From contig OY979729.1 of assembly GCA_963855995.1 (NCBI GenBank), positions 7,210,115-7,274,114 on the forward strand: DNA of 64,000 nt, read 5' to 3'. The position numbers were made by a program, and so were the translations under genes. Below are positions 8,238-30,547 of the stretch, piece after piece. The first letter of the stretch is position 1, and each line of letters begins with the position of its first letter. Under the pieces are notes generated by a model. That model searched no databases and was not told the DNA's origin. It saw only the letters and a program-made list of their open reading frames with translations. The stretch comes from Muricea muricata. Taxonomy: Eukaryota > Cnidaria > Anthozoa > Malacalcyonacea > Plexauridae.

Positions 8238-8286
<49 letters not shown>

Positions 8287-8294
8287 TAATAATA
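8181..8294. repeat. (TAA)n microsatellite
   Basis: About 114 bp of TAA/AAT units with rare G substitutions. It is the 3' tail of the preceding retrotransposon, expanded. Poly-Ile, poly-Leu and poly-Asn frames through it are artefacts. Confidence 0.95.
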
Positions 8295-9348
8295 AAAAAA
8301 GACATTGGGTTAGTATTCTGGCGAAGTTGGGTACTAAAGATGTTGTTGGCACGAGGTGGTAGGAATAAGGATGGTTGTTCCATGGGATAATAGTCTGAGA
8401 GCTGGAGTGGAGAGATGTGATGTTATGTATTTGGCGGCTGAAAATGATGTTTGTGTTGTGATCTGTGTTTATATGCACACCAGGAAGCTGAAAATATACC
8501 ACGGCGATACATTCAGCTTAAGTGAGGACTTCGCGTCACATTGACGCTTTGAAGCTCCTTATGCAAGAAATTGCACGAGAACCTCTTCTGTTCAGAATGA
8601 AACTCTGGAGTTAATTGCATTAGACGCACTGTCAGTGATAACGTTTTTTTCACCAACTGTCTTTTATGCGATGTGTAGTGCTGTGTGTCATTACGCATTC
8701 CCATGTTTAAATTTGAGTCGGTAGTCTGTTCTTGAACAATGACCACGGACTCTTGAATGATAATTTTATCAATGGATGCCGAGCAATCATGCTGGTTGTT
8801 CTGCAAGGTTTACCCAATTTGCACTCCGTATACGTGTTGCGATTTTACCTTTTTTAACCTGCTTTTGGCTGTGCTTGTTGAGGGGAGGGGTGTTACCGCG
8901 ACGCGGGCGGATGCATCCTCCTCCCCCGTAACCTTCATTCAACGGTCGTAAAGTTTCTATGTCCAGCAAGGGTCACTAAAACTCCACCGAAAAAGCGATG
9001 TCCAAGTGAGGTTTTGTTTTCGAAATTTCTCAGGGGAAAATGAACCTGGACCCTCTTTGATGGCTCGCGCCTTTCGTGCTTGCCACCCCCTTTGCTCTCC
9101 TCTTCGCAGTCCTTGTTTATACACCCAACACGCGAATACACTCCGGTTGCTGCGTGCCTGCACGATAGATATTTGTCTCACGTCAAACCTCTAAATAAAA
9201 AAAATCAACAAAAAAACATGGGTCATGGCTTGTCATGGCGTGCACGAGATGAAAATGTGGCTGATGTGGCTGAGTAAACTTGTTCAGAACAGAAACCGGA
9301 TGGAGGTGACGCAGCATTGTTTTCATCGACCCCGTTGGATTTCGATCA

Positions 9349-9380
9349 CCCCCCCCCCCACACACACACACACACACATG
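9349..9380. repeat. C-run followed by (CA)n microsatellite
   Basis: A run of about ten C is followed by ~10 CA units. The R2 copy has the same structure, with longer C and CA runs at 26,452-26,500. Confidence 0.95.
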
Positions 9381-9922
9381 CACATACACGAACTCTTGCT
9401 GAACTCGAATATTAAAACGACGAAATAAATTTTATATTAAAACACTTCTTGAAGTAAAATTTCATATAATACACAAAATACAACAAGTGCGTTAGCTGAG
9501 CGAAGAGATGGGTAGTCTAGCTGGAAAATTTATGAGCAATGCGCTGTTTGGGGATGGATATAGATATACGGCAAGCATATCTGAATCTAGAGTTTTAGAT
9601 TATTGAAACTAAGGAATACATTGCCCTGCTAATGTTGTGAATAACATCAGAGAATTGTGTTGTGTAAGTGTTTTTTTTTCTTGTACAATGTCGTAGTTGA
9701 CGTAATGTTGTTCTTGATAGACATTTACCGACTGAACGCGGTATTTTAATTTTTTTCTGTTTTACCCTTCAATCCCTCACAAAAATTATGAGACCACCAA
9801 TTTAAAATTGTATTTGTGCCTCCCCTCCCTACTACAAAGCGCGGTATTTTAATTTTTTTTCTGTTTCACCCTGCAATCCCTCACAAAAATTATGAGACCA
9901 CCAATATAAATGTGTATTTGTG

Positions 9923-10026
9923 CCTCCCCTCCCCCCTACAAAGCAATGTTGCTTGTGATGAGCAGGAACTTTTGTTGTACAGTTGCTCGTCTAACACCCA
10001 ACATTGCTTGTAGGGGGGAGGGGGAA
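9923..10026. repeat. C/G-tipped hairpin repeat, copy 1
   Basis: CCCCCCTACAAAGCAATGTT on the left pairs with AACATTGCTTGTAGGGGGG on the right, around a ~50-bp interior. Similar copies are at 27,517-27,620 and 30,437-30,547. Confidence 0.85.
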
Positions 10027-10623
10027 CAACAACATCAACTAATGTCACAAACCTGCTAATTCAATAGATTTATAAGCAAGTCTCAATATATTTTGTGAAG
10101 GATTGTCTTGCGATTGAAAGAGCACTTGTATTGTAAAACATGGTAGATTCTTTATAGAATCGTAATGTTGATAGTCTTTCGAAGTTGGTGTATCATTATT
10201 ATATGTTAGAGAGGCTATATATAAAATGACTTAAAAAAGAAGAAAGCTGAATGCATTCAAGCTTGGTATAAGACATGCATCATATTGTATTATGTGTATA
10301 CCTAGAATAATCTAGTAAGAAATGCATAAAATGCATGCAATATGGACAGTAAAGAGGTGGAAGGGCGTGGTTGGAGATTTATTGTATTGGCTTAAAAGAG
10401 GAGATTTCAACTTCTAGAGGAAATATGTTGCTGAACCTATGCACTATATATATATACCTTTCCGTACTTGGTATTGGTAATGTGATAGACACATGACAAG
10501 AAATAATACGCTATTCACAATGTCACATACACGTTCACCATACAAAATTACATATTATATTCTTAAAACTCACAGGATAAAAAGTTCACAGAAATTTTTA
10601 AACGATATAGATAATTAAAGAAA

Positions 10624-11004: not shown

Positions 11005-11013
11005 AAGTTTTTA
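11005..11013. repeat. Left 9-bp target-site duplication
   Basis: AAGTTTTTA directly precedes the first base of the foldback element and is repeated exactly at 24,389-24,397. Confidence 0.85.
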
Positions 11014-11160
11014 ACTTCTGTGAAACTACCACAGGATTCACCACAGGATTCGTTCTTTCTAAAATTAACCAATGCGAAGTTACCACAGGACTCAGCGTCA
11101 TTCGTTCATCCCCAAATTAGACGAACGCGAGCTTAGCACAGGATTCAGATCCGGTCACAG
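11014..11160. repeat. Subterminal repeats, left end
   Basis: CACAGGATTC or a one-base variant occurs four times, each spaced by 12-60 bp, just inside the terminus. Clustered subterminal motifs are typical transposase binding sites. The mirrored set lies at 24,240-24,388. Confidence 0.7.
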
Positions 11161-11214
11161 CGTGATTAATTATGACGAACTGAACCATGAGTAAACCAGG
11201 CAATGTTTTTTGAA

Positions 11215-14200
11215 ATTAAGGGGCGCGGGAACATCCTATTTACTCGAATAACATATCAAACGAAAGCCCATTCTTCGTACTTCACAAATATATCATTTTT
11301 AACGTGGCACAAATTAGTGGCTTCACTATACGGGACGGCAAACGAGATGAACGCTCCCTGCACCAGAAACTGCATATTAATATTTTTTGCGCAATCAAAA
11401 ATATACGCGATTTTTGTCAAGACAAACGGCTTGTATCTGCTTGAATAACATATCGATCGAAAGCCCATATTGCATAGATTACAAGGATGTATTTTTTAGC
11501 CTGGCACAAATTCGTGTCTTCATTCTACGGGCCGAGAAACGAGAGGGAACGCACGCTTGATACTTGTAGCTGCATAATAATTATTTTTGCTCAATCGGAA
11601 ATACAAGTGATTTTTGTCAAGAGAAACCGTTCTTATTTGCTTGAATAACATATCTATCGAAAGCCCATATCGCATAGATTACAAGAATATATTTTTTAGC
11701 CTGGCACAAATTCGTGTCTTCATTCTACGGGCCGACAAACGAGAGGGAACGCACGCTTGAGACTTGTAGCTGCATAATAATTATTTTTGCTCAATCGGAA
11801 AAACAAGTGATTTTTGACCAGAGAAACGGTTCTTATTTGCTTGAATAACATATCTATCGAAAGCCCATATCGCATAGATTACAAGAATATATTTTTTAGC
11901 CTGGCACAAATTCGTGTCTTCATTCTACGGGCCGACAAACGAGAGGGAACGCACGCTTGAGACTTGTAGCTGCATAATAATTATTTTTGCTCAATCGGAA
12001 AAACAAGTGATTTTTGACAAGAGAAACGGTTCTTATTTGCTTGAATAATATATCTATCGAAAGCCCATAATGCATAGATTACAAATACGTAATTTCTAGC
12101 CTGGCACAAATTCGCCGTTTTAATCTACGGGCAGCCAAAGGAGACGGAAGGCATGTTTGACATGTTAATTATTTTCCAGCAATGCTAAATACACGCGATT
12201 TTTGCCAAGAGAAACGGCGCGTATGTCCTTGAGTAACATATCGATAGAAAGCCCGTGGCCTGTATATTACAAAGATGTAATTTTTAGCCTGGCACAAATT
12301 CGTGCCTACATTCTACGAGACGCGAAACCACAAACAATACACGCATAACAATGTTCGATACTATTGTACGCACTTCCAAAATCAGCGATTTTCGTCCTCA
12401 GAAACGGCTTCTTTCCGCTTGAATGAGCTATCAGCAGAAAGCTAATATACATAGTAGATTACGATTATGCGACATTTAAACTGGCACAAATTCATCGATA
12501 CATTTTACAGCACGGGGAACGCAATAAAACGCCCTCCGCCGATTCGGAATTCCATAACATGCCTTCCGTCCCTCGAAAACTGGCCCGGATTTTAGTCCGA
12601 AAAACGTCTCCAATCCACTTGAAAACATATCAGTAGACACCCTATGCTCCGTAGATTAGAAATATGTTAAATTTAAGCTGGCACAAATTCGTCGCTCCAC
12701 TCTATAGACGAGAAAACGATTTTGTGAAGCTACCACAGGATTCGAACGCTCGAAGACGCATACTAATTAACTCTGACAACGTAAACAACAAACGATGATG
12801 TCATTGAGGAATACGACATGAAAATGTAGTATTCTATAATAATTGACGCGCACGCGAAAACGTGCGATTTTTGAAAGAGAATCATCCCGAATATAGTCGA
12901 ATAGCATATCATTAAAAAGCCCACAGCCTATAGATTACAAATATGTAATTTCTAGCCTGGCACAAATTCGCTGTTTTAATCTACGGAAGGTGAAACAAGT
13001 AGAATGCTAGCTCGACACGTCAAACTGCATATTAATATTTTTTGCGCAATCAAAAATATACGCGATTTTTGTCAAGACAAACGGCTTGTATCTGCTTGAA
13101 TAACATATCGATCGAAAGCCCATATTGCATAGATTACAAGGATGTATTTTTTAGCCTGGCACAAATTCGTGTCTTCATTCTACGGGCCGACAAACGAGAG
13201 GGAACGCACGCTTGATACTTGTAGCTGCATAATAATTATTTTTGCTCAATCGGAAATACAAGTGATTTTTGTCAAGAGAAACGGTTCTTATTTGCTTGAA
13301 TAACATATCTATCGAAAGCCCATATCGCATAGATTACAAGAATATATTTTTTAGCCTGGCACAAATTCGTGTCTTCATTCTACGGGCCGACAAACGAGAG
13401 GGAACGCACGCTTGAGACTTGTAGCTGCATAATAATTATTTTTGCTCAATCGGAAAAACAAGTGATTTTTGACAAGAGAAACGGTTCTTATTTGCTTGAA
13501 TAACATATCTATCGAAAGCCCATAATGCATAGATTACAAATACGTAATTTCTAGCCTGGCACAAATTCGCCGTTTTAATCTACGGGCAGCCAAAGGAGAC
13601 GGAAGGCATGTTTGACATGTTAATTATTTTCCAGCAATGCTAAATACACGCGATTTTTGCCAAGAGAAACGGTGCGTATATCCTTGAGTAACATATCGAT
13701 AGAAAGCCCGTGGCCTGTATATTACAAAGATGTAATTTTTAGCCTGGCACAAATTCGTGCCTACATTCTACGAGACGCGAAACCACAAACAATACACGCA
13801 TAACAATGTTCGATACTATTGTACGCACTTCCAAAATCAGCGATTTTCGTCCTCAGAAACGGCTTCTTTCCGCTTGAATGAGCTATCAGCAGAAAGCTAA
13901 TACATAGTAGATTACGATTATGCGACATTTAAACTGGCACAAATTCATCGATACATTTTACAGCACGGGGAACGCAATAAAACGCCCTCCGCCGATTCGG
14001 AATTCCATAACATGCCTTCCGTCCCTCGAAAACTGGCCCGGATTTTAGTCCGAAAAACGTCTCCAATCCACTTGAAAACATATCAGTAGACACCCTATGC
14101 TCCGTAGATTAGAAATATGTTAAATTTAAGCTGGCACAAATTCGTCGCTCCACTCTATAGACGAGAAAACGATTTTGTGAAGCTACCACAGGATTCGAAC

Positions 14201-15160
14201 GCTCGAAGACGCATACTAATTAACTCTGACTACGTAAACAACAAACGATGATGTCATTGAGGATACGACATGAAAATGTAGTATTCTATAATAATTGACG
14301 CGCACGCGAAAACGTGTGATTTTTGAAAGAGAATCATCCCGAATATAGTCGAATAGCATATCATTAAAAAGCCCACAGCCTATAGACTACAAATATGTAA
14401 TTTCTAGCCTGGCACAAATTCGCTGTTTTAATCTATGGAAGGTGAAACAAGTAGAACGCTAGCTCGACAGGTCAAACTGCATATTAATATTTTTTGCGCA
14501 ATCAAAAATATACGCGATTTTTGTCAAGACAAACGGCTTGTATCTGCTTGAATAACATATCGATCGAAAGCCCATATTGCATAGATTACAAGGATATATT
14601 TTTTAGCCTGGCACAAATTCGTGTCTTCATTCTACGGGCCGACAAACGAGAGGGAACGCACGCTTGAGACTTGTAGCTGCATAATAATTATTTTTGCTCA
14701 ATCGGAAAAACAAGTGATTTTTGACAAGAGAAACGGTTCTTATTTGCTTGAATAATATATCTATCGAAAGCCCATAATGCATAGATTACAAATACGTAAT
14801 TTCTAGCCTGGCACAAATTCGCCGTTTTAATCTACGGGCAGCCAAAGAAGACAGAAGGCATGTTTGACATGTTAATTATTTTCCAGCAATGCTAAATACA
14901 CGCGATTTTTGCCAAGAGAAACGGCGCGTATGTCCTTGAGTAACATATCGATAGAAAGCCCGTGGCCTGTATATTACAAAGATGTAATTTTTAGCCTGGC
15001 ACAAATTCGTGCCTACATTCTACGAGGCGCGAAACTATAGACATGTATTGGTTGACCGGATTTTGTCTCCTCGAAAACATACAGTATCAATCAAATGCTC
15101 ATAGTCAATGTATTACAAATATAAAATAGTTATACCGGTACAAATTGGTGGTTTCGATCT
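11215..15160. repeat. ~200-bp satellite array with higher-order repeats, left arm
   Basis: About 19 diverged units of ~190-200 bp, each centred on CTGGCACAAATTCG preceded by GATTACAAA-type text and followed by CTACGGG-type text. Near-identical blocks recur at about 11,370, 13,024 and 14,478, spacings of ~1.65 and ~1.45 kb, so several unit types form a higher-order repeat. No coding function is seen. Confidence 0.92.
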
Positions 15161-15417
15161 ACGGGATGTAAAATCAAAGTGCGATTTAATCTTACTTGGG
15201 CAGGCGTAAATGAAAGTAATAAATAGAAGGAATTTTTAAATTTCAGGTGGAAATATGGGTGACGTCATGTTCTAACTAAATTTGAACGCTGTTGTCTGAT
15301 TGGCGTCTTTTGAGACTGACCGTTGACTTCAACGGTTTGAATTTTTCGTGAGCGAAAAATATCGTATATATCTTAAATATTTGTTGTTTTTTTTGTGGAA
15401 GATTCCTATTTTTCATA

Positions 15418-15702
15418 ATGAAACGAACTGTTGGTAGACGTTTGAAATTGGCTTTCAACGTTGATGACATATTGGCTGCTATGACAAGAATATGTGGCGA
15501 TCCAAAGGAGACGTGGAGAGCAGTAAATGGATTTTGGGGAAAACTTGCCACGGAACTTGGTTTAAAGAATAAGATTCTGGTGAGGAAAAATTTAAATACG
15601 CGATGGAATGAAGACAGGAGAGGCCTTAGAAGCGAGTATGCGAAAATGTTAAAGGGAGAAGACAGTAGTCTATCCCGTCCGTATGGGATGGGAAGTAATT
15701 AG
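15418..15702 (+). CDS. 94-aa basic protein of the foldback element, left copy
   Basis: The frame starts at an ATG after an A/T-rich leader with TATATA at 15,365. It encodes a Lys/Arg-rich protein with three tryptophans (W33, W40, W63) and an amphipathic pattern (NVDDILAAMTRICGD, then TWRAVNGFWGKLATELGLK). The spacing of tryptophans and basic helices would suit a small DNA-binding fold, but I recognise no family. The right-arm copy at 20,678-20,962 differs by one residue (N64 to I), so the frame has stayed open in both arms. It might also be one exon of a longer gene. Confidence 0.5.
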   Translation: MKRTVGRRLKLAFNVDDILAAMTRICGDPKETWRAVNGFWGKLATELGLKNKILVRKNLNTRWNEDRRGLRSEYAKMLKGEDSSLSRPYGMGSN

Positions 15703-15717
15703 TATGCAAGCCTGTAT

Positions 15718-16062
15718 CACAGATTACTATTGTACCAGATGTCTATCTTCGCCAAATATCTGTTACAAGTTTTTGACTGCTTACGCGAGCTGACGAAAGA
15801 TTTCCGCCATGTTCTTAGTAAGCGCAATCCACGCCATACAACGTAAGCAACAGTCTAACCGAGTCTAAAACCTATGCATGTCTGACAAAGGCCTGGCCTG
15901 GACGCGAGTCTGACGCAAGTGTCCGCCATGTTCTTAGTAAGCGCAACATACGTGATATTGCGAAAAATGACGAGTGCAATTCGTGATCAGAGTGAAAATC
16001 GAGAACACAAATTTACCTTGCGAAAACACGAAGATAGACATCTGGTACAATAGTAATCTGTG
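15718..16062. mobile_element. 345-bp MITE inserted only in the left arm
   Basis: The ends are ~34-bp inverted repeats (CACAGATTACTATTGTACCA inward on the left). CCTGTAT flanks it on both sides, or GCCTGTAT if one terminal base is counted as target. The right arm shows the empty site with one CCTGTAT at the mirrored position. A 7-8-bp duplication would fit a hAT-like element. TCCGCCATGTTCTTAGTAAG occurs twice inside. No coding capacity. Confidence 0.9.
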
Positions 16063-16087
16063 CCTGTATGTAGAGAAATGACGTCAT

Positions 16088-16215
16088 TGCAAGGATGTGC
16101 GCACGCTAGGATGTGCGCACTATCCCGATACACGCGAGGGTGTGTGCACTGACTATCCCGATGCACGCGAGGATGTGCGCATTATTCGATCCACACGAGG
16201 ATGTGCGCACGGCGG
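16088..16215. repeat. Short tandem GGATGTGCGCAC repeats
   Basis: GATGTGCGCA-type motifs occur about five times with ~30-bp spacing, alternating with ATCCCGATGCACGCGAGG-type text. The mirrored set is at 20,521-20,640, where a 4-bp indel (GACT) is the only clear difference. Confidence 0.8.
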
Positions 16216-16481
16216 TATTCGGAAAAAACACGTTTTTAGAAAGATGTATTGACAAAATGAAATTTTTACGTTACCTTAAGTATAAGTATACATATATAGG
16301 TTTAGATACTGTTTGTTTTAGATATTAGATACTGTTTGTCCTGCTGGTTTTATGATGTTCACACATCAGTCCCAAGACACCCACAGTATGTAACTTGTCC
16401 GCATTCCAGGACGACGTCAAAGCACTGATCGGACTAGCATTATACATTCTGCGTGCACTGTTGTGTGTCAACAATTAGTTA

Positions 16482-16801
16482 TCATAAGCTGTTCGTTGTC
16501 GCTCTTTTTTCCAAACATAAAAAACATAGTTGATTGTCCGGGAATAATGTCCAGCAATAGCCACAACGTACTGTCCCGTCGACCACGGACGATGCTGCCC
16601 AATGTCTAAAACACTCACAGTGAGCACCTTGGTGACAACACGGTGTATTCATAGCGAGTACCTCTTCGGCCTAGACATAGCTTCAAAACAGAAATGGCAT
16701 TGCTTTTCTTCTATACCGTTTTCCGATAGTATACCAAATAGATGGATTATGGCTGTTGGCAAAATAACGCCTGGTGAAGGTAAAGCTCCAACTGTTCCCA
16801 T
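16482..16801 (-). CDS. RING-H2-like small gene in two overlapping frames, left copy
   Basis: Two minus-strand frames overlap at an ATGA: the first (16,801-16,649, 50 aa) ends with a CHFC pair; the second (16,652-16,482, 56 aa) supplies CCHQGAHCEC and then CGYC. Together the residues follow the RING-H2 order: C-x2-C, C-x-H, H-x2-C with a following Trp, C-x2-C. A further CFLC pair lies downstream. RING proteins usually act as ubiquitin ligases. Production of the whole domain would need a frameshift, splicing or reinitiation; as written neither frame holds a complete RING. The right arm has the same break. Confidence 0.5.
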
Positions 16802-17015
16802 TTTCGGATGTTGATGTCTTCAAGCGTATTATAAGTAAAGACTGGACAGGTGGTTCATGTGTGCTGCGAAGTATGAAAAGGGAGATAAAGGGGGTATGAC
16901 GAATACGAAATCGTACTGATTTTGGAGAAAAATATTAGAGCGTTTTTTGGTTTGCATAAATTAACACACGGATTAACGTTTGGAATAATTTATTTTTGTA
17001 AGTATTACAGACAGT

Positions 17016-17125
17016 AGAGCTATATTTTGTTAGTCTCGTACAAGTTTATGCGATGAGCAGATGAGCATCTGCTCATAACTGCTCATGAGCACATGCTCAT
17101 ACGCTCATAAGGCCCTATGTGGCCC
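17016..17125. repeat. Palindrome-rich spacer A, left arm
   Basis: TATATTTTGTTAGTCTCGTA leads into GATGAGCAGATGAGC and a 39-bp stretch (17,070-17,108) dense in GAGCA/TGCTC half-sites, including GCTCATGAGC. The same 39 bp recurs in spacers B and C and, mirrored, three times in the right arm. Confidence 0.85.
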
Positions 17126-17272
17126 GATGGCCGAGCACATATGAAACATACCATATTAAAATCTGATTGGTTTTTAGTTATCCTGCTAATATTATAAAAT
17201 GATAATTTTGAGTCGGTAAGAGCATACCGCTTGCAACGTTCACAGAGATAAGACTTTTAGATTGCCAATTTA

Positions 17273-17488
17273 ATGGAGGAGAACTTATCGCGGTTACATG
17301 ACCTGAACTTATCGCGGTTACATGACCTGAACAAGCGTGTGGCAGAGGCAAGAAAAAGAGTTGATTATTTGAAGAAAAAGAGAAATGCTTTATACCTTCG
17401 CAAAAGGACGGTTGACGTACAAACCTGGATGTTAAACAATTTTGTAGACGATGCATGCCGTGGCCTCAAAGAAATAATTAAGACTTAG
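17273..17488 (+). CDS. 71-aa coiled-coil protein of the foldback element, left copy
   Basis: The ATG follows a leader with TTATAAAAT at 17,193. Residues 5-20 contain an 8-residue duplication (LSRLHDLN twice) from a 24-bp tandem repeat. Residues ~21-50 form a strongly charged helix (KRVAEARKRVDYLKKKRNAL) that should make a coiled coil, and the C-terminus ends DACRGLKEIIKT. AATAAA at 17,597 lies 109 bp past the stop, giving a complete small transcription unit. I know no homologue. The right copy differs by Asp to Glu at one site. Confidence 0.55.
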   Translation: MEENLSRLHDLNLSRLHDLNKRVAEARKRVDYLKKKRNALYLRKRTVDVQTWMLNNFVDDACRGLKEIIKT

Positions 17489-17596
17489 AAACAACCAGGG
17501 AACGCTGTGCTTATATTTGTTATGTAGGATAGATCAAATAGAAATTCATCATCTAATGAAAAGCTGTAGTACAGTTTCTAATGAAAAGCTGTAGTA

Positions 17597-17602
17597 AATA
17601 AA
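17597..17602 (+). terminator. Poly(A) signal of the 71-aa gene, left arm
   Basis: AATAAA 109 bp downstream of the stop codon; mirrored in the right arm. Confidence 0.5.
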
Positions 17603-17820
17603 GGATACAAACCTGTTGAGTTTGTAGACGTTGTTTTATTTGCTTGTCCTTAATACATTCACCCCACACCGGTCTCACACTGACCCAACATAGACCTTTT
17701 GTCGGCCCCACACCACCCTCTAATCAACCTCGTATAAGCAGATGGTCATCTGCATATACCAATAGTTGGGATCTACACAATGGTTATAGCTGTCAATACC
17801 TAACAGTTAGGGCCTTATCA

Positions 17821-17893
17821 GCTTTTGAGCACCTGCTCATAACTGCTCATGAGCACATGCTCATACGCTCATAGGTCCCGATGTGGCTAGCCA
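17821..17893. repeat. Palindrome-rich spacer B, left arm
   Basis: Contains the shared 39-bp stretch after GAGCACCT, and is followed by CCCGATGTGGC, related to the text after spacer A. It lacks the TATATTTTGTTAG part. Confidence 0.8.
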
Positions 17894-17899
17894 AGTTAG

Positions 17900-17994
17900 T
17901 ATAGCTATATTTTGTTAGTCTTGTACAAGTTTATGCGATGAGCAGATGAGCGGGTGCTCATAACTGCTCATGAGCACATGCTCATACGCTCATA
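17900..17994. repeat. Palindrome-rich spacer C, left arm, at the centre boundary
   Basis: Carries both the TATATTTTGTTAG lead and the 39-bp stretch. Arm symmetry ends exactly at its last base (17,994). Confidence 0.85.
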
Positions 17995-18048
17995 AAAATA
18001 CAGTGTTGCTCAGTGACAATGCATTTCTACACAGTCAGTTCTAGCGGA

Positions 18049-18632
18049 ATGAGCTGTAAATTTTGCGGGAAAGCATTTAATCGTGATTTCAATCTCCGTC
18101 GACACGAAAACGAGCATTGTCCGCTGAAAAGCGAGGAGAGAGAAATGTCAGAAACAGAAATTCAGAGCTCAGAAGATGATGCTTCGAGCGTTGCAACTGA
18201 CGGGTCTCAGAGTTCGATAACAGGAGACTCGGAAACTGAGGAGGAAGAAGTGGATCCTTGGATGCCCATGGTAGAAGAAGCGATGCAAAAGCATAAGGCG
18301 GCTTTTCAGGAGATAAAGATGAATTTGACTCAAAGTGGTCTGGATGAGGAAACCGCTGAGGAAACAGCTTACTCTAATATTCTGCCTGAGCTCCAAAAGG
18401 AATTGGAAAGTATCTATTTGCAGCGTCTCCAATGAATACAACAACTAAAGAAAGATCCAGTGCATAAGAAAATAATGGAAACAAAGGATGCGCTCGTGAA
18501 CGATGATCATTTTGATCAAGAAGAGGCTATGGAGCAGCTGTCAATAAGAGAAAATTTCTAATTAAAAGACATTTAAAAGACTACAGTTTTACTAGTTTTA
18601 CTGAGGACAGTGATGATGAAGAAGATTATTAA
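18049..18632 (+). pseudogene. C2H2 zinc-finger protein with acidic tail, centre of the element
   Basis: From the ATG at 18,049 (another ATG in frame is at 18,019) the protein opens with one C2H2 finger, C-x2-C-x12-H-x3-H (CKFCGKAF, then RRHENEH). A Ser/Glu/Asp-rich segment follows (about residues 25-70), then helical sequence beginning VDPWMPMVEEAMQKH. A TGA at 18,433-18,435 interrupts the frame, which goes on in phase through KDPVHKKIMETKDAL to 18,561. A shift near 18,552 opens another frame to 18,632 ending in an acidic DSDDEEDY tail. Similar single-finger proteins are, as I recall, common in cnidarian genomes without known function. AATAAA follows at 18,661. Confidence 0.65.
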
Positions 18633-18660
18633 CTACATTAATATTTGTCATATTGTTCTC

Positions 18661-18666
18661 AATAAA
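18661..18666 (+). terminator. Poly(A) signal of the C2H2 gene
   Basis: AATAAA, 28 bp after the distal stop of the C2H2 gene. Confidence 0.55.
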
Positions 18667-18741
18667 ATTATATATACATATCCGAGTTTGATATTATTTT
18701 AATATGTGGGAGGGTTATAACTGTCGGGCCACATAGGGACG

Positions 18742-18836
18742 TATGAGCGTATGAGCATGTGCTCATGAGCAGTTATGAGCACCCGCTCATCTGCTCATTG
18801 CATAAACTTGTACAAGACTAACAAAATATAGCTATA
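18742..18836. repeat. Palindrome-rich spacer C, right arm
   Basis: Inverted copy of 17,900-17,994, bounding the C2H2 centre on its other side. Confidence 0.85.
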
Positions 18837-18842
18837 CTAACT

Positions 18843-18915
18843 TGGCTAGCCACATCGGGACCTATGAGCGTATGAGCATGTGCTCATGAGCAGTTATGAG
18901 CAGGTGCTCAAAAGC
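18843..18915. repeat. Palindrome-rich spacer B, right arm
   Basis: Inverted copy of 17,821-17,893. Confidence 0.8.
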
Positions 18916-19247
18916 TGATAAGGCCCTAACTGTTAGGTATTGACAGCTATAACCATTGTGTAGATCCCAACTATTGGTATATGCAGATGACCATCTGCTT
19001 ATACGAGGTTGATTAGAGGGTGGTGTGGGGCCGACAAAAGGTCTATGTTGGGTCAGTGTGAGACCGGTGTGGGGTGAATGTATTAAGGACAAGCAAATAA
19101 AACAACGTCTACAAACTCAACAGGTTTGTATCCTTTATTTACTACAGCTTTTCATTAGAAACTGTACTACAGCTTTTCATTAGATGATGAATTTCTATTT
19201 GATCTATCCTACATAACAAATATAAGCACAGCGTTCCCTGGTTGTTT

Positions 19248-19463
19248 CTAAGTCTTAATTATTTCTTTGAGGCCACGGCATGCATCGTCTACAAAATTGT
19301 TTAACATCCAGGTTTGTACGTCAACCGTCCTTTTGCGAAGGTATAAAGCATTTCTCTTTTTCTTCAAATATTCAACTCTTTTTCTTGCCTCTGCCACACG
19401 CTTGTTCAGGTCATGTAACCGCGATAAGTTCAGGTCATGTAACCGCGATAAGTTCTCCTCCAT
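19248..19463 (-). CDS. 71-aa coiled-coil protein of the foldback element, right copy
   Basis: Mirror of 17,273-17,488 with one conservative Asp-to-Glu change in the charged helix; the 24-bp internal duplication and the downstream AATAAA (mirrored, 19,134-19,139) are kept. Confidence 0.55.
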   Translation of the reverse strand: MEENLSRLHDLNLSRLHDLNKRVAEARKRVEYLKKKRNALYLRKRTVDVQTWMLNNFVDDACRGLKEIIKT

Positions 19464-19610
19464 TAAATTGGCAATCTAAAAGTCTTATCTCTGTGAACGT
19501 TGCAAGCGGTATGCTCTTACCGACTCAAAATTATCATTTTATAATATTAGCAGGATAACTAAAAACCAATCAGATTTTAATATGGTATGTTTCATATGTG
19601 CTCGGCCATC

Positions 19611-19720
19611 GGGCCACATAGGGCCTTATGAGCGTATGAGCATGTGCTCATGAGCAGTTATGAGCAGATGCTCATCTGCTCATCGCATAAACTTGTACGA
19701 GACTAACAAAATATAGCTCT
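19611..19720. repeat. Palindrome-rich spacer A, right arm
   Basis: Inverted copy of 17,016-17,125, lying in the divergent interval between the 71-aa and RING-like genes. Confidence 0.85.
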
Positions 19721-19934
19721 ACTGTCTGTAATACTTACAAAAATAAATTATTCCAAACGTTAATCCGTGTGTTAATTTATGCAAACCAAAAAACGCTCTA
19801 ATATTTTTCTCCAAAATCAGTACGATTTCGAATTCGTCATACCCCCTTTATCTCCCTTTTCATACTTCGCAGCACACATGAACCACCTGTCCAGTCTTTA
19901 CTTATAATACGCTTGAAGACATCAACATCCGAAA

Positions 19935-20254
19935 ATGGGAGCAGTTGGAGCTTTACCTTCACCAGGCGTTATTTTGCCAACAGCCATAATCCATCTATTT
20001 GGTATACTATCGGAAAACGGTATAGAAGAAAAGCAATGCCATTTCTGTTTTGAAGCTATGTCTAGGCCGAAGAGGTACTCGCTATGAATACACCGTGTTG
20101 TCACCAAGGTGCTCACTGTGAGTGTTTTAGACATTGGGCAGCATCGTCCGTGGTCGACGGGACAGTACGTTGTGGCTATTGCTGGACATTATTCCCGGAC
20201 AATCAACTATGTTTTTTATGTTTGGAAAAAAGAGCGACAACGAACAGCTTATGA
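19935..20254 (+). CDS. RING-H2-like small gene in two overlapping frames, right copy
   Basis: Mirror of the left-arm gene. The first frame is 19,935-20,087 and the second 20,084-20,254, overlapping as ATGA. The zinc-ligand order is the same, and the only noticed difference is a Thr/Ala change near the N-terminus. The gene is divergent from the 71-aa gene, with one palindrome-rich spacer (19,611-19,720) between them. Both second-frame lengths are under 60 codons, so the gene is easy to miss. RING assignment is my inference from ligand spacing. Confidence 0.5.
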
Positions 20255-20677
20255 TAACTAATTGTTGACACACAACAGTGCACGCAGAATGTATAATGCT
20301 AGTCCGATCAGTGCTTTGACGTCGTCCTGGAATGCGGACAAGTTACATACTGTGGGTGTCTTGGGACTGATGTGTGAACATCATAAAACCAGCAGGACAA
20401 ACAGTATCTAATATCTAAAACAAACAGTATCTAAACCTATATATGTATACTTATACTTAAGGTAACGTAAAAATTTCATTTTGTCAATACATCTTTCTAA
20501 AAACGTGTTTTTTCCGAATACCGCCGTGCGCACATCCTCGTGTGGATCGAATAATGCGCACATCCTCGCGTGCATCGGGATAGTGCACACACCCTCGCGT
20601 GTATCGGGATAGTGCGCACATCCTAGCGTGCGCACATCCTTGCAATGACGTCATTTCTCTACATACAGGCTTGCATA

Positions 20678-20962
20678 CTAATTACTTCCCATCCCATACG
20701 GACGGGATAGACTACTGTCTTCTCCCTTTAACATTTTCGCATACTCGCTTCTAAGGCCTCTCCTGTCTTCAATCCATCGCGTATTTAAATTTTTCCTCAC
20801 CAGAATCTTATTCTTTAAACCAAGTTCCGTGGCAAGTTTTCCCCAAAATCCATTTACTGCTCTCCACGTCTCCTTTGGATCGCCACATATTCTTGTCATA
20901 GCAGCCAATATGTCATCAACGTTGAAAGCCAATTTCAAACGTCTACCAACAGTTCGTTTCAT
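20678..20962 (-). CDS. 94-aa basic protein of the foldback element, right copy
   Basis: Mirror copy of 15,418-15,702, with Ile instead of Asn at residue 64. No MITE interrupts its 3' flank, so it shows the original arrangement. Function unknown. Confidence 0.5.
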   Translation of the reverse strand: MKRTVGRRLKLAFNVDDILAAMTRICGDPKETWRAVNGFWGKLATELGLKNKILVRKNLNTRWIEDRRGLRSEYAKMLKGEDSSLSRPYGMGSN

Positions 20963-21221
20963 TATGAAAAATAGGAATCTTCCACAAAAAAAACAACAAA
21001 TATTTAAGATATATACGATATTTTTCGCTCACGAAAAATTCAAACCGTTGAAGTCAACGGTCAGTCTCAAAAGACGCCAATCAGACAACAGCGTTCAAAT
21101 TTAGTTAGAACATGACGTCACCCATATTTCCACCTGAAATTTAAAAATTCCTTCTATTTATTACTTTCATTTACGCCTGCCCAAGTAAGATTAAATCGCA
21201 CTTTGATTTTACATCCCGTAG

Positions 21222-24185
21222 ATCGAAACCACCAATTTGTACCGGTATAACTATTTTATATTTGTAATACATTGACTATGAGCATTTGATTGATACTGTA
21301 TGTTTTCGAGGAGACAAAATCCGGTCAACCAATACATGTCTATAGTTTCGCGCCTCGTAGAATGTAGGCACGAATTTGTGCCAGGCTAAAAAATATATCC
21401 TTGTAATCTGTGCAATATGGGCCTTCGATCGATATGTTATTCAAGCAGATACAAGCCGCTTCTCTTGACAAAAATCGCGTATATTCTTGCTTGCGTAAAA
21501 ATAAGTAACATGCAGCTTGAATAGTCGAGCTTTTGTTCTGCGCGTTTCACCTTCCGTAGATTAAAACGGCGAATTTGTGCCAGGCTAGAAATTACATATT
21601 TGTAATCTATAGGCTGTGGGCTTTTTAATGATATGCTATTCGACTATATTCGGAATGATTCTCTTTCAAAAATCGCACGTTTTCGCGTGCGCGTCAATTA
21701 TTATAGAATACTACATTTTCACGTCGTATTCCTCAATGACATCATCGTTTGTTGTTTACGTTGTCAGAGTTAATTAGTATGCGTCTTCGAGCGTTCGAAT
21801 CCTGTGGTAGCTTCACAAAATCGTTTTCTCGTCTATAGAGTGGAGCGACAAATTTGTGCCAGCTTGAATTTAACATATTTCTAATCTACGGAGCATGGGG
21901 TGTCTACTGATATGTTTTCAAGTGGATTGGAGACGTTTTTCGGACTAAAATCCGGGCCAGTTTTCGAGGGACGGAAGGCATGTTATGGAATTCCGAATCG
22001 GCGGCGGGCGTTTTATTGCGTTCCCCGTGCTGTAAATTGTATCGATGAATTTGTGCCAGTTTAAATGTCGCATAATCGTAATCTACTATGTATTAGCTTT
22101 CTGCTGATAGCTCATTCAAGCGGAAAGAAGCCGTTTCTGAGGACGAAAATCGCTGATTTTGGAAGTGCGTACAATAGTATCGAACATTGTTATGCGTGTA
22201 TTGTTTGTGGTTTCGCGTCTCGTAGAATGTAGGCACGAATTTGTGCCAGGCTAAAAATTACATCTTTGTAATATACAGGCCACGGGCTTTCTATCGATAT
22301 GTTATTCAAGGAGATACGAACCGTTTCTCTTGGCAAAAATCGCGTATATTTAGCATTGCTGGAAAATAATTAACATGTCAAACATGCCTTCCGTCTCCTT
22401 TGGCTGCCCGTAGATTAAAACGGCGAATTTGTGCCAGGCTAGAAATTACGTATTTTTAATCTATGCATTATGGGCTTTCGATAGATATATTATTCAAGCA
22501 AATAAGAACCGTTCCTCTTGTCAAAAATCACTTGTTTTTCCGATTGAGCAAAAATAGTTATTATGCAGCTACAAGTCTCAAGCGTGCGTTCCCTCTCGTT
22601 TGTCGGCCCGTAGAATGAAGACACGAATTTGTGCCAGGCTAAAAAATATATCCTTGTAATCTATGCAATATGGGCTTTCGATCGATATGTTATTCAAGCA
22701 GATACAAGCCGTTTGTCTTGACAAAAATCGCGTATATTTTTGATTGCGCAAAAAATATTAATATGCAGTTTGACGTGTCGAGCTAGCATTCTACTTGTTT
22801 CACCTTCCGTAGATTAAAACAGCGAATTTGTGCCAGGCTAGAAATTACATATTTGTAATCTATAGGCTGTGGGCTTTTTAATGATATGCTATTCGACTAT
22901 ATTCGGGATGATTCTCTTTCAAAAATCGCACGTTTTCGCGTGCGCGTCAATTATTATAGATACTACATTTTCATGTCGTATTCCTCAATGACATCATCGT
23001 TTGTTGTTTACGTTGTCAGAGTTAATTAGTATGCGTCTTCGAGCGTTCGAATCCTGTGGTAGCTTCACAAAATCGTTTTCTCGTCTATAGAGTGGAGCGA
23101 CGAATTTGTGCCAGCTTGAATTTAACATATTTCTAATCTACGGAGCATGGGGTGTCTACTGATATGTTTTCAAGTGGATTGGAGACGTTTTTCGGACTAA
23201 AATCCGGGCCAGTTTTCGAGGGACGGAAGGCATGTTATGGAATTCCGAATCGGCGGCGGGCGTTTTATTGCGTTCCCCGTGCTGTAAAATGTATCGATGA
23301 ATTTGTGCCAGTTTAAATATCGCATAATCGTAATCTACTATGTATTAGCTTTCTGTTGATAGCTTATTCAAGCGGAAAGAAGCCGTTTCTCGGGACGAAA
23401 ATTGCTGATGTTCGAAGTGCGTACAATAGTATCGAACATTGTTATGCGTGTATTGTTTGCGGTTTCGCGTCTCGTAGAATGTAGGCACGAATTTGTGCCA
23501 GGCTAAAAATTACATCTTTGTAATATACAGGCCACGGGCTTTCTATCGATATGTTATTCAAGGAGATACGAACCGTTTCTCTTGGCAAAAATCGCGTATA
23601 TTTAGCATTGCTGGAAAATAATTAACATGTCAAACATGCCCTCCGTCTCCTTTGGCTGCCCGTAGATTAAAACAGCGAGTTTGTGCCAGGCCAGAAATTA
23701 CGTATTTGTAATCTATGCATTATGGGCTTTCGATAGATATGTTATTCAAGCAAATAAGAACCGTTTCTCTTGTCAAAAATCACTTGTTTTTCCGATTGAG
23801 CAAAAATAATTATTATGCAGCTACAAGTCTCAAGCGTGCGTTCCCTCTCGTTTGTCGGCCCGTAGAATGAAGACACGAATTTGTGCCAGGCTAAAAAATA
23901 CATCCTTGTAATCTATGTAATATGGGCTTTCAATCGATATGTTATTCAAGCAAATGAGAACCGTTTCTCTCGACAAAAACCGGTCGTTTTCCGATTGCGT
24001 GAAATAATATTGCAATATAAATTAATATTCAGTTTCTGGTGCAGGGAGCGTTCATCTCGTTTGCCGTCCCGTATAGTGAAGCCACTAATTTATGCCACGT
24101 TAAAAACGATATATTTGTGAAGTACGAAGAATGGGCTTTCGTTTGATATGTTATTCGAGTAAATAGGATGTTCCCGCGCCCCTTA
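21222..24185. repeat. ~200-bp satellite array with higher-order repeats, right arm
   Basis: About 14-15 units in the opposite orientation to the left array, with the same unit types (core CGAATTTGTGCCAG) and the same ~1.25-1.45-kb higher-order period. Unit number and order differ from the left arm. Confidence 0.92.
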
Positions 24186-24239
24186 ATTTCAAAAAACATT
24201 GCCTGGTTTACTCATGGTTCAGTTCGTCATAATTAATCA

Positions 24240-24388
24240 CGCTGTGACCGGATCTGAATCCTGTGCTAAGCTCGCGTTCGTCTAATTTGGGGATGAACGA
24301 ATGACGCTGAGTCCTGTGGTAACTTCGCATTGGTTAATTTTAGAAAGAACGAATCCTGTGGTGAATCCTGTGGTAGTTTCACAGAAGT
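24240..24388. repeat. Subterminal repeats, right end
   Basis: Mirror of 11,014-11,160: GAATCCTGTG-type motifs repeated four times up to the terminus. Confidence 0.7.
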
Positions 24389-24397
24389 AAGTTTTTA
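24389..24397. repeat. Right 9-bp target-site duplication
   Basis: AAGTTTTTA directly follows the last base of the foldback element, matching 11,005-11,013. Confidence 0.85.
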
Positions 24398-25252
24398 GCT
24401 ATACTCCGATGGCGTCGTCTTGTGAATACACGTTCGTCAAAAGCTCTTGTGAATTTTACCCTTCATTTGGGTGTTAATACTTTCCAAAGGCTTCATATTG
24501 CCTCTGAGCAATTCCGATCTAACCATATCGTATTTGCAAGACATATTTTGCAAGACACAAAATATACTTCGAGTTCGAATCGAATGAACCTTTGCAGTCA
24601 AGGTTGAGATCATTGAATATTAATTAGCTTGCCAATGCCAAACTTGCAGCATCATGACTGAGATACCCCACGCAAAGTCAGTCAGAAAAAATGAGCCAAT
24701 GAGAGTGGAAAGTTTTTTCAAATCATCCAATTAAAAAGCTTGTAGAGAGCTTCGAATTGCGCAAGCTAAGTCAGACCCCCGCAAAGGTCAGTCAAAATAG
24801 TTAATATGGCCTCTCGACCAATCAAATGACTAGAAACCGCCACCCGAGTCGGCAAGATTTTGGTGAAATACCGCTGTCTGTGACTTGAGAGTAACGATTT
24901 AAACGCGTGCTGCCGGAATATATTTAACTGGACTACAATAAGTTGGAGCTCGTATAAAATTGTGAAAATGCCGCTTGATTCACAGAATATTAATTATCTA
25001 TGAATCTTACACGTAAGTCGCATGACTGACTTGACTACCCTGGATCCGCCCCTGAGCTGAAATGCAGAAAATGATACTAATGGACAGTGAAACGTTATTG
25101 AGGAAAGTGCTTTCCGGAATTGTCCAAAGTGACACAGAAGAGAACTAGCAACAGGGATAGCGTTCATTTTATGAATCATGTTGTTGCTCTTGTAACTAGC
25201 AAATATTGGTAGTTATTTATTATGGCAACATTTTGTAGCTTCTTTAATCACA
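24398..25252. other. Right flank of the foldback element, no supported gene
   Basis: No coding similarity is seen. A frame at 24,422-24,607 lacks features of a real protein. GACTGA/CAGTCAG-type short repeats occur near 24,660-24,800. A (TAA)n tail begins at 25,253. Confidence 0.55.
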
Positions 25253-25281
25253 TAATAATAATAATAATAATAATAAAAAAA
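25253..25281. repeat. (TAA)n at the left edge of R2
   Basis: A short TAA tract directly before R2, at the same place as the retrotransposon tail before R1. Confidence 0.9.
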
Positions 25282-26463
25282 GACGTTGGGTTAGTATTCT
25301 GGCGAAGTTGGGCACTAAAGATGTTGTTGGCACGAGGTGGTAGGAATAAGGATGGTCGTTCCATGAGATAATAGCCTGAGAGCTGGAGTGGAGAGATGTG
25401 ATGTTATGTATTTTGCGGCTGAAAATGATGTTTGTGTTGTGATCTGTGTTTATATCCACACCAGGAAGCTGAAAATATACCACGGCGATACATTCAGCTT
25501 AAGTGAGGACTTCGCGTCACATTGACGCTTTGAAGCTCCTTATGCAAGAAATTGCACGAGAACCTCTTCTGTTCAGAATGAAACTCTGGAGTTAATTGTA
25601 TTAGATGCACTGTCAGTGATAATGTTTTTTTCACCAACTGTCTTTTCACAGGCATTTTGAGGCAATACGCTGTCGTTGCGACACGACTGAGCGTTAGCTA
25701 CTTAAGGTCGAGGTGATTAAATTTTAGATGTTGGATTGATCTTGAACAGTGGCCAAAGGTGCCGCAGCATGTTTGTGACGTACATGATGTGTAGTGCTGT
25801 GTGTCATTACGCATTCCCATGTTTAAATTTGAGTCGGTAGTCTGTTCTTGAACAATGACCACCGAGTCTTGAATGATGATTTCATCAATGGATGCCGAGC
25901 AATCATGCTGGTTGTTCTGCAAGGTTTACCCAATGTGCACTTCGTATACGTGTTGCGATTTTACCTTTTTTAAGCTGCTTTTGGCTGTGCTTGTTGAGCG
26001 GAGGGGTGTTACCGCGACGCGAGTGGGTGCATCCTCCTCCCCCACAACCTCTTTCTCATTCAACGGTCGTAAAGTTTCTATGTCCAGCAAGGATCACTAA
26101 AACTCCACCGAAAAAGCGATGTCCAAGTGAGGTTTTTGTTTTCGAAATTTCTTAGGGGAAAATAAATCTGGACCCTCTTTGATGGCTCGCGCCTTTCGTG
26201 CTCGCCACCCCCTTTGCTCTCCTCTTCGCAGTCCTTGTTTATACCCCCAACACGCGAATACACCCCGGCTGCTGCGCGCCTGCACGATAGATATTTGTCT
26301 CACATCAAACCTCTAAATAAAAAAAATCAACAAAAAAACATCATTGCGTGCACGAGATGAAAATGTGGCTGAGTAAACGAGGTCTGTTCAGAACAGAAAC
26401 CGGATGGAGGTGACGCAGCATTGTTGTCATCGACCCCGTTGGATTTCGATCACCCCCCCCCCC

Positions 26464-26502
<39 letters not shown>

Positions 26503-26832
26503 AACATGCTAAACTCGAATATTAAAACGACGAAATAAATTTTATATTAAAACACTTCTTGAAGTAAAATTTCATGTAATACACTAAATACAACAAGTGC
26601 GTTAGCTGAGCGAAGAGATCGGTAGTCTAGCTGGAAAATCTATAAGCAATGCGCTGTTTGGGGATGGATATAGATATACGGCAAGCATTTCTGAATCTAG
26701 AGTTTTAGATTATTGAAACTAAGGAATACATTGCCCTGCTAATGTTGTGAATAACATCAAAGAATTGTGTTGTATAAGTGTTTTTTTTCTTATACGATGT
26801 CGTAGTTGACGTAATGTTCTTGATAGATGTCA

Positions 26833-27423
26833 TAGCTGTACGTTGAAATTAGATGTAAATCAATTTTGTTTAAATCAACAGGTGCTGAAAATCTAGTGTT
26901 TTATTATTTCGCAATTAGGAAGTATTAATCAAATAAATGAAAGGCTTTCGTGAGTCAATGAAAACAACTCAGGGGATTAAACTGACATATATATTGATTC
27001 AAATGTCCTCTGTGAACCGTATCAAAGCAAGATTAGTACAAGAATAATGTCAAAAACTAAATTGCACCGAGCTGACAAGTTGGTCACGAGATACTCTTGT
27101 AGATACTTGTGGTAAGATGTCTGTAAACATAGAGCCGTTTTAAGAGATGCCTTGATAGCCATCACCCCCCCCCCCCCGCGTTCAATATACAAGGAATGCG
27201 ACCGAAGTATATATAAGCATATTTTATGCGCTGACAAATTTTTTCAAGACTTTGAGAACAAGGAACGGGGGAAGATTGGAGGCAATTTGCCCCACTCCAG
27301 TTAGCTGTTCTTTGTTGCCACAGTGTGGTAAAATGTTATTGTAATCAGTGGCGGGCAGAGCCACTTCTTCAGTGGAGGCGTTAACATGTAGACTCCACAT
27401 GATTTTATCGACCATTTTCAATA
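26833..27423. other. ~590-bp insertion in R2 relative to R1
   Basis: R1 reads straight from CTTGATAGA to CATTTACCGACTG (near 9,720). R2 has ~590 bp between these words. No inverted ends or coding features are obvious, and it could equally be a deletion in R1. Confidence 0.65.
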
Positions 27424-27516
27424 CATTTACCGACTGAACGCGGTATTTTAATTTTTTTTTTGTTTTACAATCCCTCACAAAAATTATGAGACCACCAATA
27501 TAAAAGTGTATTTGTG

Positions 27517-27620
27517 CCTCCCCTCCCCCCTACAGAGCAATGTTGCTTGTGATGAGCAGGAACTTTTGTTGTACAGTTGCTCGTCTAACACCCAACATTG
27601 CTTGTAGGGGGGAGGAGGAA
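27517..27620. repeat. C/G-tipped hairpin repeat, copy 2
   Basis: Same inverted-repeat structure as 9,923-10,026, inside R2. Confidence 0.85.
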
Positions 27621-28261
27621 CAATAACATCAACTAATGTCACAAACCTGCTAATTCAATAGATTTATATGCAAGTCTCAATATATTTTGTGAAGGATTGT
27701 CTTGCGATTGAAAGAGCACTTGTATTGTAAAACATGGTAGATTCTTTATAGAAATTGCACATAGTGATGCAGAAGCTACCCTCCGAAATGTTGATAGTCT
27801 TTCGAAGTTGGTTTATCATTATTATATGTTATGCTGGGTGGGGTTTTTAGGGCGTGGCCAGAGAGGTTATATATAAAATGACTTAAAAAAGAAGAAAGCT
27901 GAATGATTCAAGCTTGGTATAAGACATGTATCATATTGTATTATGTGTATACCTAGAATAATCTAGTAAGAAATGCATAAAATACATGCAATATGGACAG
28001 TAAAGAGGTGGAAGGGCGTGGTTGGAGATTTATTGTATTAGCTTAATAGAGGAGATTTCAACTTCTAGAGGAAATATGTTGCTGAACCTATGCACTGTAT
28101 ATATACCTTTCCGTACCTGGTATTGGTAATGTGATAGACACATGACAAGAAATAATGCGCTATTCACAATGTCACAAACACGTTCACCATACAAAATTAC
28201 ATATTATATTCTTAAAACTCACAGGATAAAAAGTAAATAAACTATTATATTTTTTTTATTA

Positions 28262-28460: not shown

Positions 28461-29800
28461 TCATTTCTCTCCCATTACTACTAGATTAGCAAAACAACTG
28501 CCACATGGCTCTAACTTCTTCTGATCTTTCTCTTCGAATACATGTTTGAATCGGATCATTCTCCAACGACTGTTCATCATCTCTGTCTCGCGCTTGTCCT
28601 CCACATTGTAAGGCCTCTTAAACACAATGGGTGCTTTTGATGTGGCAAAAATCGGGACATCGGAAGATATCACAACATCAGTAGCGAAATAATTTTTGGG
28701 GGGCTGGTAGCTTGACCGTTTCCCCTTCGAGAAGAAGAAAGAGATCATTCCATGTTATGACCTCTCTGCGGAAGCGAAAGTCTTGCAGGAGAATCACTTT
28801 TGCCTTGTCGGCGCCAACCCGTACGTATTTGTCATTTGCAGGGTTATCAAACAATCTGTCGTCAAAGATGCACTTCAAGGGTTTCAACATAAACGTTTTG
28901 GCGCAGTTGGTTTGGTCGTTGGTCATTATATTTCTGAACTTACCCCGACCTTGAGCAAGAAGCTCAAATATATATGAGGCAAAACCAGCTACTTCCATTC
29001 CATTAAGCGACAATACTTCTATGGCACACTCAAGCCAACTACCGTTGCACCCATCAACACAGGCTTCTGCCGCTGCATTTCTGACTTTTTGAATTCTTGT
29101 GATTTCGTCTCGCTGTATTTCAGATGACGCGTTTTTAAGCATCCACGATTTTACGATAAGCTCTTGAATGGATTTCTGCGTTCTGGAAAACAAAAAGTTG
29201 GCTAAATCGAATTCGCCCTCCTGCTTTCTGTCATCAGCTTTAGCAAATAACTGTTCCACGGTAGTGACGTTTTTAGTAACGATAAAATCAGATACTTCAA
29301 GGTTGCTCAGACGTCGTATTTTTGACTCGGTGCTGACATTTGTTGCAGATTTTCTTTTTCTACCGGCTTCTCGAAGAGCTGCAGTTGAAGCTTTGGTGCG
29401 TGGAGATCCTACGTGGGAAAGGTCAGGGTGGTTATCGCTGTGGACAACATCCCCATCTGCTTTGCAGACATAACGGTACGCATAAGTATGGTCCAAGATC
29501 ATGGTCCGAGAAGTTAACCACTATGCCGTACTTCTTTGTGATAGCATTCTTAACGTGTAGCCACTTTTTAACACCCGTCAGCTTCAAGCAACAGTGATAA
29601 TGGAAGCCAGTTTCCTCATGGGCCTCTTTACAACAGGCCCAATGTGATACCTTTACTTTGCTATTCCCTGAATTGAATTCGTTTTTCAGCACATTACCAA
29701 AACTTTCCCTCGTTGGGAATATTTGTCCATCTGCTTGAGAATAAGTTACAAGATATTGACGCCTTCCTTTACTCGGGTTTTGCGACTCTCTTCCAGACAT
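28461..29800 (-). pseudogene. HUH endonuclease/SF3 helicase Rep-like protein, broken
   Basis: Three minus-strand frames in order: 29,800-29,432, 29,502-28,678 and 28,748-28,461. The first carries YLVTYS (motif I-like) and HYHCCLKL (the HUH metal-binding pair). The second opens with YRYVCKAD (the single catalytic Tyr, YxxK). It later has a P-loop-like QTNCAKTF in which the second glycine is Ala and the first is lost, then VILLQDF (Walker B-like). The third has VPIFATSKAPI, like SF3 motif C. Shifts lie near 29,500 and at a C6A5 run near 28,695. Such Reps occur in CRESS-DNA viruses, parvoviruses and related integrated elements; this copy looks inactive. The start ATG is at 29,800. Confidence 0.8.
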
Positions 29801-30388: not shown

Positions 30389-30436
30389 AATCCCTCACAA
30401 AAATTATGAGACCACCAATATAAAAGTGTATTTGTG

Positions 30437-30547
30437 CCTCCCCTCCCCCCCCCCCCCCTACAAAGCAATGTTGCTTGTGATGAGCAGGAACTTTTGTTGT
30501 ACAGTTGCCCGTCTAACACCCAACATTGCTTGTAGGGGGGAGGGGGA
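30437..30547. repeat. C/G-tipped hairpin repeat, copy 3
   Basis: Third copy of the hairpin, with flanking text shared with R (30,390-30,620: CCCTCACAAAAATTATGAGA). It lies outside R1 and R2, so this part of R also moves or duplicates alone. Confidence 0.85.

Follow-up and report, generated by a model that had tools for sequence, protein, structure and literature searches.

The element at positions 11014-24388 of the window (the whole stretch of 64,000 nucleotides that was analysed, C14:7210115-7274114 in the source assembly) belongs to a mobile family of palindromic elements present in at least 16 paired copies. The best explanation, to which we give a probability of roughly 0.78, is a family of non-autonomous foldback DNA transposons that depends on a transposase acting in trans, has captured a core from an element with Polinton-like ends, and has had its two arms copied onto each other.

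The element proper is 13,375 bp long, with ACTTCTGTGAAACTACCACAGGATTC inverted at its two ends, and carries the inverted termini ACTTCTGTGAAAC at both ends, flanked on each side by AAGTTTTTA (11005-11013 and 24389-24397). The 13.4-kb foldback element with an exact 9-bp target duplication proposed in the first-pass annotation is hence real; the span given there (11005..24397) is right, but includes the duplications. The left terminus (11014-11236, plus strand) and the right terminus (24166-24388, minus strand) agree in inverted orientation over the 47 bp printed and also over the full 223 bp. The arms continue with the satellites that had been noted on both sides (11237-15035, plus strand, and 21220-24165, minus strand), built from units of ~200 bp that are organised into higher-order repeats (left arm ~1.45 kb, right arm ~1.25 kb), and no exact match to this satellite was found among the viral contigs scanned. 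The innermost arms (16152-17994 and 18742-20584, 1,843 nt each) surround a unique centre of 747 bp (17995-18741), with the sum of left and right positions being 36,736 as originally described; they are 100% identical (rounded) over these 1,843 nt, and mismatches amount to 0.21% over 1,933 nt. The longer outer arm matches are ~92-99% complementary, and many are offset through unequal satellite copy numbers. Long inverted arms with internal tandem repeats make up most of the element, which places it in the foldback structural class. Only the left arm contains a nested inverted-repeat element of ~344 bp with GCCTGTAT on both sides (15710-16069 including these duplications), which is absent from the other family copies aligned; as it is also missing in the right arm, its empty site is visible inside the same foldback element.

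Each arm contains an ORF A (15418-15702, plus strand, 94 aa, and 20678-20962, minus strand) and a gene B (17273-17488, plus strand, 71 aa, and 19248-19463, minus strand), and the centre contains gene C (18022-18435, plus strand); homologues were sought for all three, using A and B from each arm. The first-pass annotation listed at least three small genes per arm and one in the 747-bp centre: A and B have homologues, but a third arm gene is without support, and C has homologues, but is shortened here by a premature stop followed by a frame change. A small ORF antisense to B (17178-17465, minus strand) had no Pfam match.

With regard to the neighbouring sequence, a dispersed repeat flanks the element in direct copies (8266-10585 and 25245-28234, ~90-97% identical in pieces), with more pieces at 30387-30612, 34623-34914, 35725-35905 and 36506-36769. 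Two overlapping ORFs at 28678-29836 (minus strand) gave one sub-threshold match to PF23343, a replication-associated protein family (E 0.0018), and are possibly a remnant of a rolling-circle-type Rep gene, while an 18-bp minisatellite of ~172 units occupies 60904-64000 and reaches the end of the window.

The source assembly (453 Mb, 74 contigs) contains the 13-bp terminus 46 times, compared to 19 times for a reversed control, and a search with the 223-bp left terminus gave 43 matches (40 of the 43 candidates were scored), 32 of which form 16 inverted pairs while 11 are lone or partial. The paired copies range from 5,997 to 40,027 bp. The first-pass annotation had held that a genuine element should have other copies with the same termini and 9-bp duplications, and besides the window element there are indeed 15 further paired copies, of which 14 show the duplication exactly. 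This gives 15 of 16 pairs with an exact direct repeat of 9 bp; its sequence is different each time, and the 14 repeats that were tabulated suggest no clear consensus. The chance of one exact 9-mer repeat is p ~6e-6 at this base composition. These exact but differing duplications confirm that the 16 pairs are a mobile family, and not an assembly palindrome. The only pair without a duplication (C3_27.75, C3:27752127-27776824, read as L023 and L025) lies between outer flanks that match one another in inverted orientation (99% over 300 bp); this locus looks like a rearrangement, an inverted duplication or a mirrored assembly. A tandem 4.2-kb array on C14, which has the 13-mer, was rejected as a family member, since its similarity to the terminus ends there.

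The copies differ considerably in their interior. Twelve have A in both arms with a C match in between, whereas the arms of C4_5.13 and C11_5.33 are without A or core and yet are bordered by exact 9-bp duplications, and C2_51.8 has an alternative centre of 5 kb in which only a zinc knuckle exceeded the Pfam cut-off and no transposase was recognised. The two copies of 27.9 and 40 kb were considered as carriers of a transposase, and both were rejected. The surplus ~16 kb of the 27.9-kb copy (C1_9.67) is a Polinton nested in its right arm (C1:9683371-9699504, read as L010 and L011), which has matches to an integrase and a chromodomain as well as a long PolB-like ORF, and whose AGTAGAATACCC termini lie between 6-bp repeats TACATA; its polymerase and capsid ORFs were named by eye. 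The 40-kb copy (C8_12.83) owes its two outer ends of ~10 kb, both of which were read, to enlarged satellite arms with a mutually inverted match of ~98%, while its middle was placed by the A, B and C matches only; for C4_8.08 (38.7 kb) and C11_1.81, reading covered the ends only. The larger relative with a transposase envisaged in the first-pass annotation, or any other autonomous partner, was not recognised in the copies read, including the 27.9-kb copy and the ends of the 40-kb copy, where ORFs were inspected by eye and the centre of C2_51.8 was additionally searched with Pfam. The same is true for a lone terminus at C2:38.63 Mb (96% identical), which had no transposase recognisable by eye in 3.7 kb.

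ORF A has eight homologues in the protein collection and 24 matches in the genome, two per copy in 12 copies, all of which (24/24) are without a stop. Several of the homologues end shortly past the conserved part, at a place where, judged from the protein letters, a splice donor would fit. In the foldback copies, A reads into the captured core, which contains its final codons and its stop, so that A resembles the beginning of a longer gene, cut off when the core was captured. In our reading, A is the sequence native to the family, and B and C travel as passengers. There are two distant relatives of A in the genome, with identities given as 32-33% and as 24-29%. The relative at C1:67.26 Mb shares the G, E, WR, GFWG, G, N, R and W positions with A, and lies on the same strand upstream of a PHD-like ORF, which has the cysteine pattern by eye and is interrupted by a stop, and of a transposase-like ORF of 606 aa (C1:67260852-67262669), whose DATG and CDYS motifs, also found by eye, we take to be reminiscent of DDE transposases. 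These two ORFs, which form one locus with the A-like domain (L053:1015-4173), had no Pfam match at E<=1, and neither inverted ends nor similarity to the element were found within 6 kb on each side of the locus; around the other relative (L052), the 6 kb read contained no ORF resembling a transposase. That an A-like domain precedes a PHD-like and a transposase-like ORF at this single locus points weakly to a transposase of the Rehavkus/MULE type acting in trans, and the 9-bp duplications agree with this type, as they do with other groups. A relationship of A to POU domains was rejected, as the PDB profile match (E 0.35) was judged to be due to chance, and the predicted structure of A, with a mean pLDDT of 56, was set aside as a basis for a fold search.

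Genes B and C have 61 homologues at E<=0.1 and 360 homologues at E<=0.01, respectively. C contains a C2H2 zinc finger, and has no relative in the viral contigs and the bacterial and archaeal genomes scanned. The premature stop in C is identical in the seven foldback copies read, and a TGA is found in 12/12 foldback copies. Most relatives aligned have a longer B than the window, and in many other genome matches the open frame of B is 106-110 aa. Among the matches listed (150 of 329 candidates scored for B, without C1_9.67 and one arm of C11_1.81, and 150 of 770 for C), foldback B has a stop in 17/21 and none in four, which are both arms of C1_25.55 and both arms of C9_7.32, while many of the listed B and C matches outside the foldback copies have no stop. 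The description of the element as having protein-coding giant arms is therefore correct for A, which is uninterrupted in both arms, but not for B and C, which are mostly damaged passengers.

From sequence comparison, the inner ~4.6 kb of the element (the captured core, 15690-20690), which has B in each arm and C between them, is foreign to the foldback family, since the same sequence exists alone as palindromic elements with different termini (AGTAGTATTACC) and 6-bp duplications. The matches listed include 38 or more inverted B pairs no more than 3 kb apart, ten of which are foldback copies, and a C match is often located between the paired B matches. The stand-alone status was read directly for three elements (L032, L033 and L034), all of which (3/3) have a 6-bp duplication, and is inferred for most other B and C matches. 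L033 on C7 (~4.6 kb, repeats TGCCTC) and L034 on C1 (4.58 kb, repeats AAGATG) both have the AGTAGTATTACC termini, and the C of L034 has the stop of the foldback copies, whereas L032 and L033 are without that stop. L032 (C1:32100347-32109821) is a 9.5-kb palindrome with Polinton-like ends and repeats AACGGG, with arms of 4,705 nt that have 11 differences, and a centre of 65 nt. It has four ORFs of interest per arm, one being 31.5% identical to an ORF of the Polinton nested in C1_9.67, and an L032 ORF has a 29-aa match (E 5e-4) to the capsid-like ORF of that Polinton. No ORF for a polymerase or integrase was seen by eye in L032 (ORFs of >=80 aa) or L033 (>=100 aa), and a scan of the four L032 ORFs gave no Pfam match of polymerase or integrase type. 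In the foldback copies, the core starts at GGGAAGTAATTAGTATGCAAGCC on both sides, with the outer ~28 bp of the AGTAGTATTACC-type termini missing. The foldback family probably took up the inside of such a palindromic element, one resembling L034, and the core junction may then have been copied onto the other arm.

It is conceivable, although we regard it as more doubtful than likely, that palindromy is itself a unit that is maintained and exchanged between two unrelated classes of transposons in this genome, and that B and C come from undescribed palindromic satellites of Polintons. If true, foldback elements with 9-bp duplications and Polinton satellites with 6-bp duplications, both giant gene-bearing palindromes, would swap hairpin cores, and each arm could be renewed from its partner, with a mutation in a single arm being copied to both.

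For copying between arms, eight complete copies were compared out of the 12 that have A and core, with the C3 element and the core-free copies entering the multi-copy alignments only where matching. In the core, arms differ by 0.10% within vs 0.41% between elements, for 13/16 arms the strictly nearest one is the partner in the same element, and 15 private changes are shared by both arms of one element vs 14 in one arm only. For the A region the differences are 0.23% within and 0.80% between elements, with 10/16 arms nearest to their own partner and private changes in both arms (10) or in one arm (11), and the A regions of the two arms of C1_25.55 differ by 1.21%. At the termini, compared without the right arm of C1_9.67, of which only the first stretch was given, the values are 1.67% within and 1.76% between elements, only 2/14 arms are nearest to their own partner, and two private changes are in both arms vs 21 in one (15 of these 21 from one arm of C1_14.05). 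As the closest match of an inner arm is usually its partner, which does not hold for termini, the alignments support a homogenisation near the centre of the palindrome, either at transposition or afterwards, while the private changes present in both arms could also go back to distinct parents in which the two arms were alike beforehand.

In the explanation which we prefer, a transposase acting in trans, for which the Mutator/Rehavkus type is the most likely candidate, would recognise the ACTTCTGTGAAAC termini and perhaps also sites in the arm satellites, and a staggered cut at insertion would generate the 9-bp duplications, of which mobility and duplication are directly observed. ORF A may be the N-terminal part of a transposase-related gene of which the rest was lost, its present stop codon being supplied by the captured core, as seen from its position. 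The family would once have taken over the interior of a palindromic element with Polinton ends that carried B and C, and arm-to-arm copying, mostly near the centre, might proceed by gene conversion or hairpin repair, while changes in satellite copy number would make the arms longer or shorter. A simpler history, in which a palindromic element of the 6-bp type jumped whole into the foldback centre, would fit the identical core junction in the copies compared, and the foldback centre is a possible target, but it is unlikely given that neither junction has the outer ends of the 6-bp-type termini, and that the core is flanked by inverted rather than direct 6-bp repeats.

The first-pass annotation also raised the alternative of an integrated linear genome, that is a self-replicating, virus-like or Polinton-like genome with gene-bearing long terminal repeats. 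This idea points to the captured core, which is shared with gene-bearing palindromes with Polinton-like termini and 6-bp duplications, and the L032 similarities to a Polinton ORF and to its capsid-like ORF point the same way. For the outer element it is very improbable, as this has other termini, 9-bp duplications and satellite arms, no polymerase, integrase or replication gene was recognised in it, B and C are mostly broken in the foldback copies while many matches elsewhere are stop-free, and the two copies without A and core have retained exact duplications. Palindromes are prone to assembly and library errors, and the mirrored flanks of C3_27.75 may be an example, but a falsely mirrored contig is next to inconceivable for sixteen places with different flanks, 15 of which have exact duplications, and it does not agree with the unequal satellite copy numbers of the two arms or the arm-specific nested element in the window.

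Polintons (Mavericks) have 6-bp duplications, polymerase B and a retroviral-type integrase. The outer element differs from these in having a 9-bp instead of a 6-bp duplication, while the termini of the stand-alone core elements, AGTAGTATTACC and AGTAGA.TACCCC, resemble the AGTAGAATACCC of the nested Polinton. Unlike Polintons, these stand-alone elements are palindromes of 4.6-9.5 kb with B and C, and with no recognised polymerase or integrase.

The element works like a Foldback element, and the published accounts cited here describe several systems of related design. The FB-like Tetris of Drosophila virilis has arms of up to 1,735 bp with tandem units of ~220 bp, 8-10 bp duplications and a variable middle, and is described there as lacking a transposase of its own and, in complete copies, conserved ORFs (PMC4079207). 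The window family has in common with FB and Tetris the long inverted arms of tandem repeats, the duplications of ~9 bp, the variable middle and no own transposase recognised, but unlike Tetris as described it has arms of several kb or more, in which a small ORF is uninterrupted, and a foreign palindrome that it has captured. The Tm1 Mutator/Foldback elements of root-knot nematodes have composite inverted repeats with internal tandem repeats, variable interiors and duplications of 8-10 (mostly 9) bp in 45/53 complete copies, with a tandem unit of ~14 bp, asymmetric 7-bp ends and one copy of 1,080 bp, and some copies encode a putative transposase (PMC3169594). Tm1 and Tetris share the design of the window family but are smaller in scale, and the window family differs from Tm1 in the ~200-bp units of its satellite. 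Galileo, a member of the P superfamily (PMC3573991), has foldback-like long and internally repetitive inverted repeats and chimeric copies, and secondary structure and breaks have been proposed as drivers of its rearrangements, but with 7-bp duplications, arms of up to 1.2 kb and a canonical copy of ~5.4 kb (PMC2775673) it differs from the window family with its 9-bp duplications and arms of several kb. Rehavkus, an outgroup or branch of the MULEs, has 9-bp duplications, a PHD finger in its transposase, a minisatellite before the 3' inverted repeat, inverted repeats of 26-400 bp and one ORF, and is listed in that account only from arthropods and annelids (PMC6446971). The window family fits this description in its 9-bp duplications, and the A-like domain at the locus with putative PHD-like and transposase-like ORFs may point the same way.

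In the literature searched, mainly the non-subscription part, we came across neither gene-bearing arms of several kb in a foldback element nor the capture of a Polinton-type palindrome by one. The family extends the size of foldback elements to 40 kb between exact 9-bp repeats, and their content to an uninterrupted ORF in the arms and a palindrome captured from another transposon class. Its 15 insertions with exact duplications, each with two arms, form a natural experiment on the survival, expansion and homogenisation of long palindromes, and may inform how transposons of different classes trade parts.
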